DNA of 64,000 bases from Devosia insulae DS-56. GTDB taxonomy: Bacteria; Pseudomonadota; Alphaproteobacteria; Rhizobiales; Devosiaceae. The notes under the pieces are model-generated. The model was not told where the DNA came from and did not search any database. It saw only the letters and a list, made by a program, of their open reading frames with translations. The stretch lies in NCBI RefSeq assembly GCF_000970465.2, contig NZ_LAJE02000285.1:1-64000 (forward strand), written 5' to 3'. Both the position numbers and the translations under genes were made by a program. This document shows positions 1,523 to 60,183 of the stretch, one piece after another. Position 1 is the stretch's first letter. Each line of letters begins with the position of its first letter.

Positions 1523-2425
1523 TTGACCAGCCTCGATACGGCGCGGGAGGGCCCCCGCGCCGTTGCCTTCGGAACGCGCCTGCCCAAGGCGCGAAAGCCC
1601 GGTCGCAGGCATCTGCTGCCGGGCTTCGGGCTGACCTTCGGCATCACGGCGCTCTATCTCGTCCTGATCGTGGCGCTGCCTCTGGCGGCGATGCTGCTCA
1701 AGACCTTCAGCCTCGGCTGGCCGGAGTTCTGGCGCATCGTCTCGTCGCCGCGCGCTATTTCGGCCTACTGGATCACCTTCTCCTCCGCCGCCGCGGCGGC
1801 GGTGTTCAACGGCTTTTTCGGCCTGCTGCTGGCCTGGGTGCTGGTGCGCTATGAGTTCCCCGGCAAGCGCATCATCGACGGGCTGGTCGACCTGCCATTC
1901 GCATTGCCCACCGCCGTCGCGGGCCTTGCGCTGGTGACGTTGTTCGGTCCGGCCGGCTGGTATGGGCAGGTCCTCGTGCCGCTGGGGATTACCGTCACTC
2001 ACGCGCAGCTCGGCATCATCGTTGCCATGGCCTTCACCTCGCTGCCCTTCGTGGTGCGCACGGTGCAGCCGGTGCTGGAGGACATTCCTGAGGACGTGCA
2101 GGAAGCGGCGCGGCTGCTCGGGGCAACGCCGTTCCAGGTGTTTTCGCGCGTGATCCTGCCGCTGATCCTGCCGGCGTTCACCACCGGCGTGGTGCTCTGC
2201 TTCGCCCGCGCCATCGGCGAGTTCGGCGCCGTGGTGTTCATCGCCGGGAACCTGCCGGGGATGACCGAGATCGTCTCGCTGCTGGTCTTCATCCGGCTCG
2301 ACGAGCACAATTATCCCGCCGCCGCGGCGCTCGCGACCGTGCTGCTGGCGACGGCGTTCGTCACGCTCTTCCTCACCAACCTGCTTCAGGCCTGGCAGCT
2401 CCGCTATGCAGATAAATCCCGCTGA
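1523..2425 (+). CDS. cysT: Sulfate ABC transporter permease CysT (CysU)
   Basis: One of two inner-membrane permease subunits that form the sulfate channel. The 300-aa product has a basic cytoplasmic N-terminus (about residues 1-35), then about six hydrophobic segments. The EAA loop EAARLLGATPFQVFSRVILP near residue 194 docks on the ATPase subunit. The start is a TTG at 1523, ten bases after the binding-protein stop; no ATG or GTG lies upstream of the first membrane helix, so a rare start is likely. Its 3' end overlaps cysW by 20 nt, indicating translational coupling. No ATPase gene (cysA) follows. Confidence 0.9.
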   Translation: MTSLDTAREGPRAVAFGTRLPKARKPGRRHLLPGFGLTFGITALYLVLIVALPLAAMLLKTFSLGWPEFWRIVSSPRAISAYWITFSSAAAAAVFNGFFGLLLAWVLVRYEFPGKRIIDGLVDLPFALPTAVAGLALVTLFGPAGWYGQVLVPLGITVTHAQLGIIVAMAFTSLPFVVRTVQPVLEDIPEDVQEAARLLGATPFQVFSRVILPLILPAFTTGVVLCFARAIGEFGAVVFIAGNLPGMTEIVSLLVFIRLDEHNYPAAAALATVLLATAFVTLFLTNLLQAWQLRYADKSR

Positions 2426-3251
2426 CGCGTCGCTCCCGGCCGATCCGCGCCGCCCGCAGTCCGCGGTGGCGTGGGGGTTGATCGGGCTTGCCTACCTGAT
2501 GGCCGGCGCGGTGCTGCTGGTGCCGCTGCTGCTGATCGTCGTCACCGGGTTTCGCGAAGGCGTCGGCGTCTACGTCGCCAACATCGTCGAGCCCGAAACC
2601 CTGCACGCGATCTTTCTCACCGTGCTGGCGGCGATCGTCGTGGTGCCGATCAATGTGGGGTTCGGCATCGCCGCCGCCTGGCTGGTGACGCGCTACGAAT
2701 TCCGCGGCAAGCGGCTGCTGATCACCTTCATCGAGATCCCGTTCTCGGTGAGCCCGATCGTGGCTGGGGTGATCTACCTGTTCCTCTATGGCGGGCAGGG
2801 GCTGCTCGGCCCGTTGCTCGCACAGTTCGACATCAAACTGATGTTCACCGTGTGGGCGATCTTCCTCGTCTCGCTGTTCGTCACCTCGCCGTTCGTGGCG
2901 CGTGAGTTGATCCCGCTGATGCAGCAGCAGGGCGGCGAGGACGAGGAGGCGGCGCTGTCGCTCGGCGCCAATGGCCGGCAGATCTTCTGGCACGTGACCT
3001 TGCCTAATATCCGCTGGGCGCTGCTCTATGGCGCGGTGCTGTGCAACGCCCGGGTGATCGGCGAGTTCGGCGCGGTGTCGGTGGTTTCGGGCGCCATCCG
3101 CGGCCAGACCAACACGTTGCCGCTGCAGATCGAGCTCTTGTTCAACGATTTCAACGTCACCGGCGCTTTTGCCGCCGCCTCGACGCTGGCGCTGCTGGCC
3201 GTGCTGACCATCATCCTCAAGTCGGTGCTCGAGCAGAAGACTGGGCACTAG
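2406..3251 (+). CDS. cysW: Sulfate ABC transporter permease CysW
   Basis: The second permease subunit of the sulfate transporter, 281 aa, with a short hydrophilic N-terminus and about six membrane helices. Its EAA motif, EEAALSLGANGRQIFWHV near residue 180, is the ATPase contact loop. The ATG at 2406 lies inside the end of cysT. In most bacteria cysA follows cysW and supplies the ATPase. Here the next gene, 139 nt downstream, is an unrelated DUF3300 gene. The transporter must therefore use a cysA encoded elsewhere or share the ATPase of another importer; the sequence cannot say which. Confidence 0.9.
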   Translation: MQINPADASLPADPRRPQSAVAWGLIGLAYLMAGAVLLVPLLLIVVTGFREGVGVYVANIVEPETLHAIFLTVLAAIVVVPINVGFGIAAAWLVTRYEFRGKRLLITFIEIPFSVSPIVAGVIYLFLYGGQGLLGPLLAQFDIKLMFTVWAIFLVSLFVTSPFVARELIPLMQQQGGEDEEAALSLGANGRQIFWHVTLPNIRWALLYGAVLCNARVIGEFGAVSVVSGAIRGQTNTLPLQIELLFNDFNVTGAFAAASTLALLAVLTIILKSVLEQKTGH

Positions 3252-3390
3252 CTCCAGTTCGACATCAATCAGCGGCAAAACCAACCTCCGGCGTTAAGCC
3301 GAGCTTGCAGCGCGCCGCCTAGAGTTCGGCCTCGTCCTCACCGTCCGCAGCTGCGGATGCTCGTCCCAAGCGACCCCGTGAGGACCTGCC

Positions 3391-4758
3391 ATGCTCTCGT
3401 TCCGCACTGCCTTCTGCGCTCTCGCCACCTTTGCCCTGCCGGTGACGTCGCTCGATTTCGCTACGACGCCGGCCTGGGCTCAGGATGTTGCTGCTGCGAC
3501 CACCGACACCGTCAGCCCCGATGCCGCGCCCAGCGCGTTGAGCGAGGACGAGCTCGAGGTGCTGGTGGCGCGTATCGCGCTCTATCCGGATGACCTGGTG
3601 GCGCTGATCTCGTCGGCGTCGCTCTATCCGCTGCAGATCGTCGAAGCCGAGCGCTACCTCGAGGAGGCGAAGAGCAAGCCGGACGAACAGCCCAAGGACA
3701 GTTGGGACGGCAGCGTCATCTCGCTGCTCAACTACCCCGAGATCGTCAAGATGATGAGCGACGACCTCGAATGGACCCAGGATCTCGGCACGGCGCTGGC
3801 TTATCAGCAGAAGGATGTGCTGCTCGCCATCCAGCAGCTGCGCGACGAGGCGGTCGCTGAGAACGTCATCAAGACCGACGACAGGCTGACCGTCACGCAC
3901 GAGGGTGAGAATGTCGTCATCCAGTCAGCGAGCCCGGACAAGGTCTACATCCCGCAATACCCGCCGGAGATGCTGTACGAGCCGGACTACGATCCCGTGC
4001 CGGTGAGCTACTACCCCGAGCCATATCCCTATTATTACGACCCGGCCGCGACCTATTTCGCCGGCTTCGTCACCGGGGCGGTGTGGGGCGCCGCGATGGA
4101 TTGGGATCATTGGGGCGTGTGGGGTGGCGACATCGGCGACGACATCGACATCAACTGCCGCGATTGCTTCAACAATATCAACGGCAAGGTACGGATCGGC
4201 GATGTCGACTGGCGCAATGTCGACCGCAGCAAGGTGAGCTTCGACCGCGACCAATTCATCGGCGGCAACCACGACAATATCCGCAACAGCATCAAGGCCA
4301 ACGACCACAACAACATCCGCACCAAGGCAGCGGACATCAAACGTGGTGACCACAGCAAAGCGCAGGCAGCGGCCAAAGCCCGGGACGTCCGCGCTGACCA
4401 CCATCAGGCCAATATCGGCGGCAATGGCGGCAAACAGCGCCCGGCCGCGACTGGCGATCGTCGTCCCGGCGGCGATGCGGCCCGCACCGCTTCAGTCAAG
4501 CCCGGCACCAAGGCCGCGGCGACCAAGCACCACGCGAGCAAACCAAAGGCCGCGGCGCGCTCCGACCATCGCAGCAAGAAGCCGTCGGCGCTCGGCGAGG
4601 TGAAGAGCGGCAAGCATGCCAAGGTGCAGTCGAGCCGCGGGCACAAGTCGATGGGCGGCAGCGGGCGGCCGCACAAGTCAGTGAGCCGCGGGGGAGGTGG
4701 CGGTCGACACGCCGGCGGTGGCGGCGGTCACCGCGGCGGCGGCGGACGACACCGGTAA
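3391..4758 (+). CDS. DUF3300 family secreted protein with Gly/His/Arg-rich tail
   Basis: A 455-aa exported protein of unknown function. It has a signal peptide ending near residue 31 (TTPAWA, then QD). The next ~190 residues form the conserved DUF3300 domain, recognisable by a start such as ARIALYPDDLVALISSASLYP and by KVYIPQYPPEMLYEP. A Tyr/Pro-rich turn follows, and then a long low-complexity half rich in Lys, His, Ala and Gly, ending in GGGGG/GGGGH runs. An SD-like GAGGA precedes the ATG at 3391. The neighbouring DUF2950 gene starts 22 nt downstream; these two families are commonly found together, which suggests a joint envelope role. The DUF3300 call is from memory of the family. Confidence 0.75.
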   Translation: MLSFRTAFCALATFALPVTSLDFATTPAWAQDVAAATTDTVSPDAAPSALSEDELEVLVARIALYPDDLVALISSASLYPLQIVEAERYLEEAKSKPDEQPKDSWDGSVISLLNYPEIVKMMSDDLEWTQDLGTALAYQQKDVLLAIQQLRDEAVAENVIKTDDRLTVTHEGENVVIQSASPDKVYIPQYPPEMLYEPDYDPVPVSYYPEPYPYYYDPAATYFAGFVTGAVWGAAMDWDHWGVWGGDIGDDIDINCRDCFNNINGKVRIGDVDWRNVDRSKVSFDRDQFIGGNHDNIRNSIKANDHNNIRTKAADIKRGDHSKAQAAAKARDVRADHHQANIGGNGGKQRPAATGDRRPGGDAARTASVKPGTKAAATKHHASKPKAAARSDHRSKKPSALGEVKSGKHAKVQSSRGHKSMGGSGRPHKSVSRGGGGGRHAGGGGGHRGGGGRHR

Positions 4759-4780: not shown

Positions 4781-5731
4781 ATGCGTACCCCTCATCTGCT
4801 AACGACGTCCTTCGTCGCCCTGACCCTGGCGATGGCACCCGCCCAGGCCCAGCAGCAATCGAGCCTCACCGACTTCGTCGCGGCCGACGATCCACCGTTG
4901 TTCGACCAGGCGGCCAGCGCCGTCGATGCCTTCAAGGCTGCCTTGGCCAGCAACGACCTCGATGCCCTCGCCAGGCTGCTCGGCCTGGATGCCGCGAAGC
5001 TGAAGGGTGCCGACGGCGCCGCGGATAGTTTCGCCCAGATGCGCGAGGGGGCGGCCACCCAACTGCTCGTCGACGACAGAGGCGACCAGCAGTTCATCGA
5101 ACTGGGCAAGCAACTCTGGCCGGTGCCGTTCCCGATCGTCAAAGGCGATAACGGCAAATGGGCCTTCGACACCATCGCCGGCATCGAAGAAATCGTGAAC
5201 CGCCGCGTCGGCGAGAACGAGATCGAGGCGCTCGCCACGGTACGTGCCTATGTCGAGGCACAGCAGGACTATTTTGCCGACGATCGCGACGGCGACGGGG
5301 TGCAGGAATATGCGCAGAAGCTGATCAGCACGCCTGGCACGACCGACGGGCTCTATTGGCCCGCGGACCAGGGCGACGGCGAGAGCCCGGCCGCTGCCAT
5401 TCCGGATGAAGGCCGCCTCGACGAGGCCAAGGCGCAGTTCGAGAAGGCAAGGAACGATCAGGGCTACTACGGCTATCGCTTCCGCATCCTGAGCGGGCAG
5501 GGCGACAAGGTGGTCGGCGGCAAATACGACTATGTCATCAACGACAACATGATCGCCGGCTTCGCACTGGTCGCCTGGCCGGTGGCCTATGCCGAGACCG
5601 GGGTGAAGACTTTTGTCGTCAGCAAGGACGGTATCGTCTACGAGGCCGATCTCGGTGCGGAAACCGAGATGGCGGTGAAGACCATCAGCAGCTTCAACCC
5701 GGATGACAGCTGGGAAATCACGACGGATTGA
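4781..5731 (+). CDS. DUF2950 family secreted protein
   Basis: A 316-aa exported protein of unknown function and partner of the DUF3300 gene. I place the start at the ATG at 4781, which follows AGAGGAT by about 8 nt and begins a signal peptide (MRTPHLL...APAQAQ). An earlier in-frame start would lie inside the DUF3300 gene and lack a signal. Family features include the charged, repeated-helix N-terminal half and the C-terminal block YYGYRFRILSGQG followed by MIAGFALVAWPVAY. A strong 13-bp hairpin follows the stop immediately, so this is the end of the operon. Confidence 0.75.
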   Translation: MRTPHLLTTSFVALTLAMAPAQAQQQSSLTDFVAADDPPLFDQAASAVDAFKAALASNDLDALARLLGLDAAKLKGADGAADSFAQMREGAATQLLVDDRGDQQFIELGKQLWPVPFPIVKGDNGKWAFDTIAGIEEIVNRRVGENEIEALATVRAYVEAQQDYFADDRDGDGVQEYAQKLISTPGTTDGLYWPADQGDGESPAAAIPDEGRLDEAKAQFEKARNDQGYYGYRFRILSGQGDKVVGGKYDYVINDNMIAGFALVAWPVAYAETGVKTFVVSKDGIVYEADLGAETEMAVKTISSFNPDDSWEITTD

Positions 5732-5756
5732 GGCCCGGCGCCTGGCGCCGGGCCTC
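5730..5756. terminator. Bidirectional terminator hairpin between convergent genes
   Basis: GAGGCCCGGCGCC (5730-5742) pairs perfectly with GGCGCCGGGCCTC (5744-5756). The stem begins on the stop codon of the DUF2950 gene and ends 8 nt before the stop of the convergent MFS gene. There is no long T-tract, but the position and 13-bp GC-rich stem fit a shared terminator. Confidence 0.65.
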
Positions 5757-5763
5757 GGGAAGA

Positions 5764-7146
5764 TCACTCGGCGGCCACGGCCTGCCTCGCAGGGCTGGCG
5801 ATGAGCAGTAGCGCGGCCAGTGCGGCGATCGCCGCGACGATCATCGCGCCGAAGAACGCCGCCTGGAAGCCGGCCAGCAGGTCCGAGTCGCTTCCCGCCG
5901 CCACCGCCACCATGGCAGCGAGGCCGATGGCCGAGCCGACCTGGTAGGTGGTGCTGATCAGGCCCGAAGCGAGCCCGGTCTGCTCGGGACGCGCCCCGGA
6001 CATCCCTGCCATCGTCGCCGGGATATAGGCCAGCGCCATGCCAAGCGCGGCGAGCAGCGAAGCCGGCAGCACGTCGACCCAGAAGTTGCCGTCGGCCGGC
6101 ACACGGGTAAACAGGAACAGCGCGACCGCCATGGCGAGGAGGCCGGCGACGAGGTTGGCCTTGATGCCAAAGCGGCCGACCAGCCGGCCCGACAGCCACA
6201 CCATCAGCACCATGATGGTGATGGTCATCGGCACCAGCGCCAGGCCGCTATAGAGCGCCGAGAGCCCCAGCACCTGCTGCAGATAGAGGTTGAGGTAGAA
6301 CCACAGCGGAATCCACGCCGCGCCGAGCAGCGCCATCAGCAGGTTGGCGGCCGCGAGGTTGGGTGTCGCAAAGATCGAGAGCGGCAGCAATGGCTGCCGG
6401 CCCATGGCCTGCAGCACGATGAACCCGAAGAACAGCAGCGCCGCAACGCCCAGCAGGGTCAGCGTCGTGGGCGATGACCAGTTTCCGGGCTCGGTGGTGA
6501 TGATGGCGTACACTGCGAGCGAGAGAGAGCCGGTGATGGTGATGGCGCCGAGCCAATCGATCCGGCCGATGCCGCCATGTACCCGCGGCAGCAGGGCGGG
6601 GGTCAGCAACAGCACCAGCGCGCCGAGCGGCACGTTGACGAGGAAGGTCCACGGCCAGCTCAACCACTCGGTGATGACGCCGCCGAGGAACACCCCAGCC
6701 GTGCCACCCGCTGCAGCGGCGGCCCCCCAGACGCCGAAGGCCTTGCCGAGCTCACGGCCATCATGCGCGAACAGCTGCATCAGCAGCACCAGCGCCGACG
6801 GCGCAATCAACGCTGCGCCAACACCCTGGATGGCGCGGCCCGCGATGAGCACCGCCTGAGAGCTTGCAACACCGGCGAGGATCGAGGCCGCCGTCAAAAT
6901 GACGAAGCCGAGCGCGAACATGCGGCGCGCTCCGAACACGTCGCTCAGCTTGCCGCCGAGCAGCAGCAGGCCACCAAAGGCGACGACATAGGCATTGAAA
7001 ATCCAGCTGAGGTTCTCGGGCGAGAAGCCGAGCTGGGTCTGGATCGCCGGCAGGGCGACGCCGACGATCGAGGTATCGAGAATGACGATGAACTGGGCGG
7101 CGCTGAGCAGCGCCAGGCCCCACCATCGCCGTGGATCGGGTTGCAT
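5764..7146 (-). CDS. MFS drug exporter, DHA2 (EmrB/QacA) family
   Basis: A 460-aa proton-driven inner-membrane exporter. Family motifs are visible: LDTSIVGVALPAIQ in helix 1 (motif D), GKLSDVFGARRMF in the helix 2-3 loop (motif A), and GGTAGVFLGGVITEWLSWPW in helix 5 (motif C, the antiporter signature). Hydrophobicity suggests 14 membrane helices, as in DHA2 members. No membrane-fusion (EmrA) or outer-membrane partner is adjacent. A MerR-type promoter (7202-7232) lies just upstream, and the preceding gene is a CueR-like MerR regulator, so expression is probably induced by that regulator's signal. The substrate is unknown. Confidence 0.85.
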   Translation of the reverse strand: MQPDPRRWWGLALLSAAQFIVILDTSIVGVALPAIQTQLGFSPENLSWIFNAYVVAFGGLLLLGGKLSDVFGARRMFALGFVILTAASILAGVASSQAVLIAGRAIQGVGAALIAPSALVLLMQLFAHDGRELGKAFGVWGAAAAAGGTAGVFLGGVITEWLSWPWTFLVNVPLGALVLLLTPALLPRVHGGIGRIDWLGAITITGSLSLAVYAIITTEPGNWSSPTTLTLLGVAALLFFGFIVLQAMGRQPLLPLSIFATPNLAAANLLMALLGAAWIPLWFYLNLYLQQVLGLSALYSGLALVPMTITIMVLMVWLSGRLVGRFGIKANLVAGLLAMAVALFLFTRVPADGNFWVDVLPASLLAALGMALAYIPATMAGMSGARPEQTGLASGLISTTYQVGSAIGLAAMVAVAAGSDSDLLAGFQAAFFGAMIVAAIAALAALLLIASPARQAVAAE

Positions 7147-57189: not shown

Positions 57190-57579
57190 ATGCCGCCAAT
57201 GATTGAAGTCATCGATACCGGCATCGCGCCGTCCAGCGGTCCGATCAACGACTGTGTCCGCGCCGGCAACCATGTCTGGCTGGTGGTGCTGGCCGAGGAT
57301 CCGAAGACCGGCAAGATCACCGAGGGCGACATCGAGGTGCAGACGCGCCAGGCGCTATCGAACCTCAGGCAAGCGATCAACGCCGCCGGCGGCGAGCTCA
57401 CCAACATCGTGCAGGTGCAGATCTTCCTCGTCGACAGCGCCGACGCGCCGGGCATGAACCGTGTGTATGCCGAGTTCTTCAACACCAAGCCGTACCCGAT
57501 CCGTGCCACAGTGGTGGTCAAGGAACTGCTGGCCAAGGGGCTGAGGATCGAGATCACGGCAACGGCGGTGCTGGGGTAG
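57190..57579 (+). CDS. RidA/YjgF-family reactive-intermediate deaminase
   Basis: A 129-aa trimeric enzyme family that hydrolyses enamine/imine intermediates released by PLP enzymes, protecting cells from damage. The layout is typical: VIDTGIAPSSGPINDCVRAG, VQTRQALSNLRQAINAAGG, VQVQIFLVDSADAPGMNRVY and RATVVVKELLAKGLRIEITA, including the conserved Arg that binds the carboxylate. Two ATGs compete, 57190 and 57199; an SD (GGAG) suits the second. A SelA-like PLP enzyme gene follows, so it probably clears that enzyme's intermediates. Confidence 0.9.
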   Translation: MPPMIEVIDTGIAPSSGPINDCVRAGNHVWLVVLAEDPKTGKITEGDIEVQTRQALSNLRQAINAAGGELTNIVQVQIFLVDSADAPGMNRVYAEFFNTKPYPIRATVVVKELLAKGLRIEITATAVLG

Positions 57580-57635
57580 GGCGGCTGGTGACGGCTGAAC
57601 GAATGGGTTCGCAAATCTCGCGAGGGGCTCTGCGG

Positions 57636-58742
57636 GTGAGTATCTACGAAGACCTTGGCATCAGGCCGATCATCAACGCGTCAGCAACCCTCACCAGACT
57701 TGGTGGATCGCGCATGCCCGCGGAAGTCCTCGAGGCAATGCGTGCGGCTGCTGGCTCGTTTGTCGATCTGCCACTCTTTCAAACACGGGTCGGCGACCGC
57801 ATCGCCGAGCTCACCCGGAATGATGCCGCATTCGTTTCCTCAGGTGCAGCAGCTGGGATCGTGCTCTCGGTCGCAACTCTGATGGCAGCGCCGAACGAAC
57901 CCGATCCGATGGCGTATCCGATGCTCAACGGCATCACCAGGAACGAAGTGATCGTTTTCACTTCACAGCGCAACGGCTACGACTTCGCGATTCGCCAGAC
58001 CGGCGCCTCTGTCATTGAGTGCGACGACACCCTCGCATCGTTTGAGTCGGCCATATCAGGGCGTACGGCGTGCCTGGTCTGGTTTGCCGGGGCGCTGGCA
58101 TTGAAATCTCCGCCGATCGAGGACGTCATCGCGATCGCCAGGAAGCACCACGTCCCGGTTCTGGTCGACGCCGCTGCCCAGATTCCGCCGGTTTCGAGTT
58201 TCTGGCACTACACCAAGGTCCTCGGCTGCGACGGTGTCGTCTTCAGTGGCGGCAAAGGTATCCGTGGGCCGCAAGCTGCCGGTCTGGTCCTTGGGACCAG
58301 GGAATTGATCGCTGGTTGCCGCCGACTTTCAGCGCCAACGCAGGGCATCGGTCGACCGATGAAAGTCGGAAAGGAAGAACTCGCCGGAATGCTCGCCGCC
58401 GTCCGGTATACACTGGAGCAGGACGAAGACGCGATTCTCGAAGGGTATGAATCGATCGTCCGGAACTGGATCGAAGACCTCGGCGGCATCGCGGGAGTGA
58501 CGACGGAACGCGGCTTCCCAAGTGAAGCTGGTCAACCTCACCCGCGCGCAATCGTTCATCTCGATGCCGGTTTCAGCAAGACGCGCGACCAGGTTATTGA
58601 CGAACTCAAGACCGGCGATGTCTGGATTGAGGTAGCTGCACTAGCCGACGAACCGAACGCCATAGCCCTCAATCCGCAGACGCTGACGAGCCAAGAGGCC
58701 GATGTCGTTGCTGCTCGATTGCGACAGGTTCTGACAAGCTGA
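57636..58742 (+). CDS. SelA-like PLP-dependent lyase/transferase
   Basis: A 368-aa PLP enzyme of the SelA/DgaE-like aminotransferase fold. MSIYEDLGIRPIINASATLT is the typical start, PLP Asp is in VLVDAAAQIPPVS, and the Schiff-base Lys is K207 in FSGGKGIRG. The family covers selenocysteine synthase and D-glucosaminate-6-phosphate ammonia-lyase; no tRNA-binding extension is present, so a small-molecule lyase is more likely. Start GTG 57636 has GAGGGG 8 nt upstream; GTG 57588 is possible but less supported. Base composition is less GC-rich than neighbours, which suggests transfer. Confidence 0.82.
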   Translation: MSIYEDLGIRPIINASATLTRLGGSRMPAEVLEAMRAAAGSFVDLPLFQTRVGDRIAELTRNDAAFVSSGAAAGIVLSVATLMAAPNEPDPMAYPMLNGITRNEVIVFTSQRNGYDFAIRQTGASVIECDDTLASFESAISGRTACLVWFAGALALKSPPIEDVIAIARKHHVPVLVDAAAQIPPVSSFWHYTKVLGCDGVVFSGGKGIRGPQAAGLVLGTRELIAGCRRLSAPTQGIGRPMKVGKEELAGMLAAVRYTLEQDEDAILEGYESIVRNWIEDLGGIAGVTTERGFPSEAGQPHPRAIVHLDAGFSKTRDQVIDELKTGDVWIEVAALADEPNAIALNPQTLTSQEADVVAARLRQVLTS

Positions 58743-58766
58743 TCAAGTCTCCGGGAAACATTATCG

Positions 58767-59291
58767 ATGGCATTCAATGTCAGGAAGCGCGGCAAACTCA
58801 CCTATTACTATGAAGGCGATCGACCTGTTCTCTCGGCGCTGGTCACCGAGGAACAGGCGGATGGCGACCTCAAGATTCATTTCGCTGGTCTGACAGGTGG
58901 CTACTCAGCGAAGGGCATTTTGGGACTCAGCGAACTCGTGTCGATGGATCCCCATCAGGAAGTCGCACTGGTGTTCAGGTGCTGGGAGAAGTGGCTGGTC
59001 GAGGCGGGAATCTGCTCGTCTTTGCAGGATATCGATTTCATTGAGGTGTACGCGTTCGGTGCCCAACCGAAGACCCCGAACATCCTCGCCGATCCCGCCG
59101 GATATGCCGCTGAGCAGGATCGCCTTCGGAAAGCCTATGCCGAGGCGTACTCATCCTTTTTCGCCGACAACCTTCCCGAAAATGGCGTTCCTTGCCGCTT
59201 CACAGTCCATCTGATCGATTTCCCGGACAAGGCGGCCTCGTACGAGTTCTATTCGACCGCGCTGCTCCAACGCGCATTGCAGAAGGGTTAG
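58767..59291 (+). CDS. Uncharacterised protein, possible divergent RidA fold
   Basis: A 174-aa protein, MAFNVRKRGKLTYYYEGDRP. I do not recognise a family with certainty. The layout (VFRCWEKWLVEAGICSSLQD, IDFIEVYAFGAQP, AYAEAYSSFFADNLPENGVP, RFTVHLIDFPDKAASYEFYS) echoes the RidA order: helix with Trp, beta strand, YAxFF helix, then RxTV strand. A ~20-residue insertion would be needed, so this is tentative. It follows the SelA-like gene by 24 nt on the same strand and shares its lower GC content, so the two probably entered together. Confidence 0.5.
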   Translation: MAFNVRKRGKLTYYYEGDRPVLSALVTEEQADGDLKIHFAGLTGGYSAKGILGLSELVSMDPHQEVALVFRCWEKWLVEAGICSSLQDIDFIEVYAFGAQPKTPNILADPAGYAAEQDRLRKAYAEAYSSFFADNLPENGVPCRFTVHLIDFPDKAASYEFYSTALLQRALQKG

Positions 59292-59390
59292 TCATGCTAG
59301 CGCAGCCGGTCCGTGGCACAGGCAACCAGCACGAAATCCCCAATGACTTGGACGTACGGTGTGAGGCAGCAAAGGCCGCCAGCCGCACCG

Positions 59391-59418
59391 TTGGGTCAAT
59401 GCGATAGTTCCATAATAT
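59391..59418 (+). promoter_or_regulatory. Candidate promoter of the hydratase gene
   Basis: TTGGGT (59391-59396), a 16-nt spacer and TAATAT (59413-59418) within a local A/T-rich patch (CATAATATATCTTAT). It lies 28 nt before the ATG at 59446 and outside the preceding cluster. The spacing fits a housekeeping promoter but the -35 is weak. Confidence 0.4.
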
Positions 59419-59445
59419 ATCTTATGCGAATGGAGGAATAGCGAT

Positions 59446-60183
59446 ATGCCGACCGAAGCCGACCTCACCCAGCAGCTTATCGAGGCCCAGCGTGCCGGCC
59501 GGCATGATGTCGATGCTGTCCCCTATGCGGCGCTCGATCGCGCTGCCGCCCTCAGCATCCAGTCCGCGACCATGGCGGCGCTCGGCGAAGCTCCGGCGCT
59601 GCTCAAGACCATCGTGGCGCCGGACGGACTTGGCGCCTGTGCGCCGATCTATCGGTCACGTGTCGGCAACAGCGGCGCGTTCCAGCTGTCGTCGCCGACG
59701 ATCGTCGGGCTCGAGGTCGAGGTTGGCCTGGTGCTGGCCAGCGACCTGACGACCGACGCCGCTAACCGTGACGAGATCGATATCATCGAGGCGATCAGCC
59801 ATTACTTCGTCGGCATCGAGGTCTGCGGTACGCGCTATGCCGACCGGAGCCTCGCAGGTGCGTATGGCGGGCTTGCGGACAACGCCACGGCCTATGGCTA
59901 CGTCATCGACCCCACGCATCGCGACGCCGGCGCCGAGATCGGCAATTACGACGTGCACCTGGAGTTCGCTGGTCAGCAGATCTGGTCGGCGCCGGCCAAG
60001 CACTCGTTCGGCACCGTGCTCAACTCGTTCATCGCCTACGCCAAGAACCAGAACCCGGCTTTTCCGCTTAAGGCCGGCACGGTGGTCACCACCGGCTCGC
60101 TCTGCGGCCTCGTGCCGATCGCCGGCGCCGGCCACGTGGTCGGCCGGCTCGGCAACCACGCCGTCAGCTTCGACATCACCTGA
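59446..60183 (+). CDS. 2-keto-4-pentenoate hydratase / fumarylacetoacetate hydrolase family protein
   Basis: A 245-aa enzyme of the MhpD/hydratase branch, which hydrates dienoates or cleaves acyl-pyruvates in aromatic or sugar-acid breakdown. Recognisable are the AALGEAPALLKTIVAPDG region, LEVEVGLVLASDL, IEAISHYFVGIEVCGTRYAD and a Gly-rich end (GTVVTTGSLCGLVPI). ATG at 59446 has GGAGG 12 nt upstream. mazG follows after 8 nt. A link to the RidA/SelA-like genes upstream is possible by position only. Confidence 0.85.
   Translation: MPTEADLTQQLIEAQRAGRHDVDAVPYAALDRAAALSIQSATMAALGEAPALLKTIVAPDGLGACAPIYRSRVGNSGAFQLSSPTIVGLEVEVGLVLASDLTTDAANRDEIDIIEAISHYFVGIEVCGTRYADRSLAGAYGGLADNATAYGYVIDPTHRDAGAEIGNYDVHLEFAGQQIWSAPAKHSFGTVLNSFIAYAKNQNPAFPLKAGTVVTTGSLCGLVPIAGAGHVVGRLGNHAVSFDIT

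Follow-up and report, generated by a model that had tools for sequence, protein, structure and literature searches.

The closest described relatives of the enzyme considered here are the DgaE/DGL lyases (PDB 7lc0, 7lce; families TIGR01437 and NF047797), which are enzymes that use pyridoxal phosphate (PLP). In the accessible part of the report on the known lyase, the His162-His163 pair is described as strictly conserved, with His163 protonating C3; an H163A variant was fully active and had lost stereospecific protonation, from which its authors infer release of an enamine, and enamine toxicity and RidA are discussed (PMC9529869). RidA itself is best known for broad damage control, and the available portion of a study of its superfamily describes several Rid subfamilies as still lacking a settled role (PMC4433059). 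In the first 64,000 nucleotides of contig NZ_LAJE02000285.1 of Devosia insulae DS-56 (this whole stretch is called the window; the genome is 5.75 Mb), a gene for a SelA/DgaE-related PLP enzyme lies beside one for a protein of 174 amino acids (aa) with a predicted, divergent Rid fold. The two form an apparently mobile module, a variation on the theme of a PLP enzyme with a Rid protein, in which the Rid-fold family is unnamed in the libraries searched. We cautiously favour the reading that they are a lyase and its dedicated Rid deaminase, moving laterally as a two-gene module that is found here between two native genes.

The SelA-like gene occupies a 384-aa open reading frame (ORF) at 57588..58742 on the + strand; a GTG at 57636 (368 aa), at the start position of its relatives, is more likely to be the true start. 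The gene for the 174-aa protein follows on the same strand (58767..59291). An earlier note, made from the letters of this region, had described these as the middle two of four genes in a row, and all four ORFs are present, co-directional on the + strand. The outer two, RidA (57190..57579, +; PF01042, E 4e-25) and a FAH/hydratase-like gene (59446..60183, +), are native and lie outside the module, one on each flank of an insertion site. In blastn comparisons of the window with orthologous sites that lack the module, homology ends at 57585 and resumes at 59366 for two loci (L114 and L117), and ends at 57582 and resumes at 59376 for a third (L116). The insert, at 57586..59365 with no strand assigned, is thus ~1.78 kb long and holds two genes only. 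The hydratase gene is present at 16 other loci of the genus (L113, L114 and L116-L129), and in seven of these (L114, L116, L117, L119, L120, L124 and L127) RidA is immediately adjacent with nothing between, the metallo-beta-lactamase gene also being in place in six of the seven empty sites. At the remaining nine, RidA is not directly beside the hydratase within the short flank examined. Two of the nine, L118 and L113, have other ORFs at that position, which may be a recurrent insertion spot in Devosia.

The four-gene order was found elsewhere only at L010 (Devosia sp. 66-14), which shares the insertion site; there, at 5207-6127, the SelA-like gene lacks its C-terminal third and the 174-aa gene is intact. 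At eight further places (L003-L009 and L080) just a block of ~1.7-1.8 kb is shared with the window, and no flank homology of at least 150 bp was found at E 1e-10 (flanks of 0.3 to 6 kb a side). The lower GC content that the earlier note had seen in the middle two genes is borne out at third codon positions (GC3), with values of 0.67 and 0.68 versus 0.79-0.88 for five surrounding genes. Measured at fourfold-degenerate sites, identity of the pair to its counterparts in five more distant species (G001, G002, G007, G009 and G012) is 67-85%, compared with 40-60% for the hydratase and mazG genes in the same species. The silent-site excess of the pair also holds against G011 and G015, making seven of nine species in total. 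Taken together, this excess, the distinct genomic places and the low GC3 indicate that the pair probably moves sideways as a unit. The view of the whole row as transferred DNA therefore stands for the middle pair and falls for RidA and the hydratase, which are native flanks.

The stretch 57500-59460 contains no direct repeat of at least 14 bp, and the module does not end in inverted repeats. A 5-bp overlap at the junctions was considered as a target-site duplication and rejected, the overlap being imperfect. A tree of the 174-aa protein groups the Devosia rows with a Thermomicrobiales row (support 95/93). Searched by tblastn, the 174-aa protein had no match in either the plasmid or the phage collection, and module DNA gave two short matches to plasmids, both in PLP genes of haloarchaea. 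A SelA-like PLP gene on a plasmid of the haloarchaeon Natrononativus (L284, 5164-6402) has D-aminoacylase and FAH-family genes as neighbours, which hints at D-amino-acid substrates for parts of the SelA-like family.

A scan of GTDB species genomes with the 174-aa protein gave 72 loci, at identities down to 62%. Eight of them, at 94-97% identity, belong to the genus of the window, six with the title Devosia and two with that of the order alone, and those outside it are mainly from Chloroflexota/Thermomicrobiales, Gemmatimonadota and Latescibacterota. Among 61 genomes (the window's own and its relatives) the gene occurs in 10, all in the genus, and a sample of 384 other alphaproteobacterial genomes yielded no further copy. 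The pair is present in 10 of 19 genus genomes: a lyase of the clade described below accompanies the 174-aa gene in all 10 (truncated in G010) and occurs in none of the nine genomes without it (Fisher 1e-5), and the two genes are adjacent at all eight genus loci L003-L010. TIGR01437 was searched for in 32 genomes that carry the 174-aa gene, representing 32 of the 72 loci and chosen for varied contexts; including unlinked cases, 25 carry a clade lyase and six a lyase of its sister clade (31/32). As a reverse control, 301 genomes were taken from the phylum of the genome holding L074, and a clade lyase was found in 6/7 genomes with the 174-aa gene versus 16/294 without it (Fisher 5e-7, relatedness ignored). 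The link between the 174-aa protein and the lyase is strong in one direction only.

Structure prediction places the 174-aa protein among proteins with a RutC/RidA-like fold. For its AlphaFold2 model (predicted local distance difference test score, pLDDT, 83.8; predicted template modelling score, pTM, 0.80), the top Foldseek match in the PDB is RutC (E 8.2e-5), and the best 50 of 55 matches with E <= 0.001 are all YjgF/Rid/L-PSP-type or uncharacterised, as typed from titles or recall. VIA-align gave a best Z of 10.1, with 116 residues aligned at a root-mean-square deviation of 2.5 and many Rid rows tied. The RidA fold that the earlier note had suspected is upheld by the model. The protein is termed divergent because it does not reach the gathering score of either PF01042 or PF14588. 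A search of Pfam and NCBIfam with the window protein returned zero families at E 1; among 63 alignment members of its family, weak PF01042 matches occur in 18 (best E 8.5e-4) and chance-level matches to five other families in 1-10. A PDB sequence search gave none at E 10 with the protein itself, and three chance-level matches only with the 63-row profile.

That alignment (A1), consisting of 62 of the 72 loci and the window protein, has a mean column identity of 77% and 51 invariant columns. All 63 rows have Arg144 (in P-x-R-F-T-V) and Glu160, and these two residues are in register with the Arg of P-I-R-A-T-V and the C-terminal Glu of the window RidA in low-scoring profile alignments (probability 4.6 and 9); the match to the RidA catalytic positions is suggestive only. 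According to the accessible text on Rid proteins, this Arg divides the imine hydrolases (RidA, Rid1-3) from other subfamilies, and those without it are predicted to be inactive in imine hydrolysis (PMC4433059). Together with the modelled fold, the two residues point to a probable enamine/imine deaminase. Imine hydrolases of the RidA/Rid1-3 kind are homotrimers whose active sites lie between subunits. Compared with other members of the Rid superfamily (RidA, RutC, TdcF and AmnE; PF01042), the 174-aa protein has the same predicted fold, with Arg144 and Glu160 tentatively in register with the catalytic pair, but it exceeds the window RidA in length by ~45 residues, has a helix at 110-135, is only 8-20% identical to the listed structures, and forms a tight family of its own with no direct Pfam match.

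The window PLP enzyme is homologous to DgaE/DGL over its full length (TIGR01437, E 2e-50; PDB 7lc0, E 1.5e-32), with 29% identity in alignment A2 and the SGxK lysine kept, in agreement with its placement near SelA/DgaE by the earlier note. It differs in scoring under both curated cut-offs (171.6 bits against 385.3 for the DgaE/SelA-related family TIGR01437, and 153.4 against 600 for NF047797), in lacking both the His162-His163 pair and an Arg at R332, and in belonging to a separate clade from known DgaE/DGL. A quick tree built from 92 relatives groups the lyases found near a 174-aa gene, except that of L026, into one clade of 41 rows (Shimodaira-Hasegawa-like approximate likelihood ratio test, SH-aLRT, 95); six rows from genomes titled as Latescibacterota or Gemmatimonadota make up its sister clade (support 83). 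The closest lyase outside the genus (L219, support 84) comes from the same genome as L014, a Sphaerobacteraceae metagenome-assembled genome.

In an enlarged tree the clade has 58 rows. The column of the PLP-binding lysine, aligned to the SGAK lysine of 7lc0, has Lys in 57/58 of them, including the window. The His162-His163 pair occurs in 0/58, in a gapped loop whose columns carry some uncertainty; where the known enzyme has KSHHC the window lyase has FAGAL, with Ala-Leu at the pair and Leu at 163. The known enzyme has phosphate-site arginines at 301, 332 and 346. Arg is found at the R332 column in 16/16 rows of lyases with the pair (HH rows) and in 0/58 clade rows. Because of this absence, the clade perhaps uses a non-phosphorylated substrate; Arg is also missing at R346 from all 58 rows, which says little.

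From the fold, insertion, co-distribution and residue losses observed here, we infer a substrate, an enamine release and catalytic roles of the following kind. For the lyase, the most likely activity is that of an ammonia-lyase on a 2-amino-3-hydroxy acid, which may be an amino-sugar acid without a phosphate; the enzyme would eliminate the 3-hydroxyl and free the product amine. By analogy with the H163A variant, the window lyase, in which His163 is absent, probably releases an enamine, and a Rid-fold partner is sensible for that reason. The 174-aa protein most likely converts the enamine or imine to a 2-keto acid and ammonia; Arg144 would hold the carboxylate and Glu160 would activate water, the roles given to such residues in the proposal for RidA. 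Enamine handling, which the earlier note had assigned to two RidA-type proteins, survives as the most sensible joint function, with the native RidA left outside the module. A stricter idea, one of several readings and put forward tentatively, is that the pair is a split ammonia-lyase, in which a PLP half without a proton donor makes the enamine and the Rid-fold half finishes the reaction. If true, the Rid protein would have a catalytic role within a single pathway, not one of general clean-up, and the two halves would spread as a minimal mobile unit.

In either form, a tightly conserved Rid-fold family, unnamed in Pfam and NCBIfam, is tied by co-distribution to lyases without the proton-donor pair. 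The available text on H163A predicts the outcome of that loss (PMC9529869), and the pair raises the question of whether a Rid partner can make up for a PLP enzyme that leaks enamine. A literature search for this lyase-Rid pair found no paper, subscription papers being mostly outside its coverage. The same pairing idea is seen in PF14588 Rid proteins near DgaE/SelA-like genes (L094, L100, L021 and L193), but these belong to a different Rid family, which the 174-aa profile did not pick up at E 1.

Several observations weigh against a lyase with a dedicated, laterally moving Rid deaminase. There is no clear silent-site excess against G010, which shares the insertion site, or against G014. Two genomes with the 174-aa gene (G080 and G227) have no clade lyase among the TIGR01437 places examined, which in the 32 genomes include only part of the weaker ones. 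Of the 22 genomes of the phylum sample that have a clade lyase, 16 are without the 174-aa gene, and Rid profiles detect no Rid gene up to 2 kb from the lyase in any of these 16 (the flank is shorter than 2 kb on one side in 6/16); a PF01042 protein is present somewhere in 15 of the 16 genomes. His persists at the 163 column in 11/58 clade rows, five of them, on our reading, belonging to genomes that carry the 174-aa gene and six to the 16 that do not. R301, another of the phosphate-site arginines, is retained in 47/58 clade rows, including the window, and the loss at R346 is uninformative because Arg stands at that column in only 5/16 HH rows. The lyase near L026 is HH-type, and HH-type Devosia lyases also lie near a Rid gene at L094 (40 bp) and L095 (1.1 kb), so that Rid adjacency is not tied to the loss of His. 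In 15/72 loci, from Latescibacterota, Gemmatimonadota and similar groups, a YdiJ-like oxidoreductase lies within 3.5 kb of the 174-aa gene, often with a LarA-type racemase (11/72). A strict rule by which loss of His163 predicts a Rid neighbour was not borne out by comparison of clades and neighbours.

A rival reading is a Rid-fold enzyme with another job in the pathway, such as a tautomerase, lactonase or amide hydrolase that acts on the substrate or product of the lyase, beside a lyase that needs no enamine helper. Such a role, which we regard as possible though less probable, accords with the majority of clade lyases in the phylum sample (16/22) that do without the 174-aa gene, with its varied neighbours (amidohydrolase, YdiJ-like, LarA, PfkB), and with 51 columns invariant across phyla, as for a substrate-specific enzyme; it sits less well with the apparent retention of both active-site residues, Arg and Glu, of the imine-hydrolysing Rid type, given that subfamilies without the Arg are predicted to be inactive in the accessible text (PMC4433059). 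A role in detoxification or signalling, protecting PLP enzymes generally and unrelated to catabolism, would fit a shared block that holds just two genes in the genus. We consider it improbable, as a native RidA is already beside the insert and the 174-aa gene elsewhere is often among ABC (ATP-binding cassette) transporter, PfkB, esterase, sulfatase and GH4 genes. That the four genes were transferred together as a single catabolic operon encoding two Rid proteins, close to what the earlier note had proposed, is very improbable: the four co-directional genes do recur in a row at L010, but RidA and hydratase adjoin each other without the pair at seven loci of the genus, the pair at L003-L009 lies elsewhere without RidA or hydratase, and the GC3 of the middle genes differs from that of the flanks. 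Beyond L010 the four-gene order was likewise not seen.

Across the 72 loci, the neighbours asked for were an amidohydrolase in 21, YdiJ-like in 15, LarA in 11 and PfkB in six, with none in 17 (some cut by contig ends). Outside Devosia the 174-aa gene is often accompanied by deacetylase-type amidohydrolases, sugar-type or oligopeptide-type ABC transporters, PfkB kinase, esterases, GH4 and sulfatase, neighbours that would suit a pathway degrading an amino sugar or amino-sugar acid in acylated form. The common amidohydrolase is of the PRK09237/EF_0837 type, which we take to be cog3964, and 10/72 loci have it together with a lyase. It is not in the Devosia module; 17/19 genus genomes carry it with or without the pair, and in the window's genome it is on another contig. 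The 174-aa gene is flanked at L033, L035, L037, L041, L062, L069 and similar loci by a gene for a YdiJ-like flavin adenine dinucleotide (FAD)/4Fe-4S oxidoreductase on one side and one for a LarA-type protein resembling malate racemase LarAH6 on the other.

The gene order in the window is metG, tatD (both presumptive labels), metallo-beta-lactamase, RidA, the SelA-like PLP enzyme, the 174-aa protein, the hydratase-like gene and mazG. The hydratase-like protein is a distant relative of FAH/2-keto-4-pentenoate hydratases and scores under the cut-off of every family matched in Pfam and NCBIfam. Beside the hydratase at L118 (G017, ~134-1494) is a 325-aa ORF that by eye resembles a periplasmic binding protein, and at L113 (G011, ~2236-3735) there is a long ORF on the opposite strand. 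In four genus genomes (L094, L095, L096 and L100), DgaE/SelA-like genes lie near a Rid gene of another type, PF14588 in L094 and L100 and similar in L095 and L096. The lyases of L094 and L095 are HH-type, that of L096 is a fragment, and at L100 a His-Ser variant adjoins the Rid gene and is followed by an HH copy.

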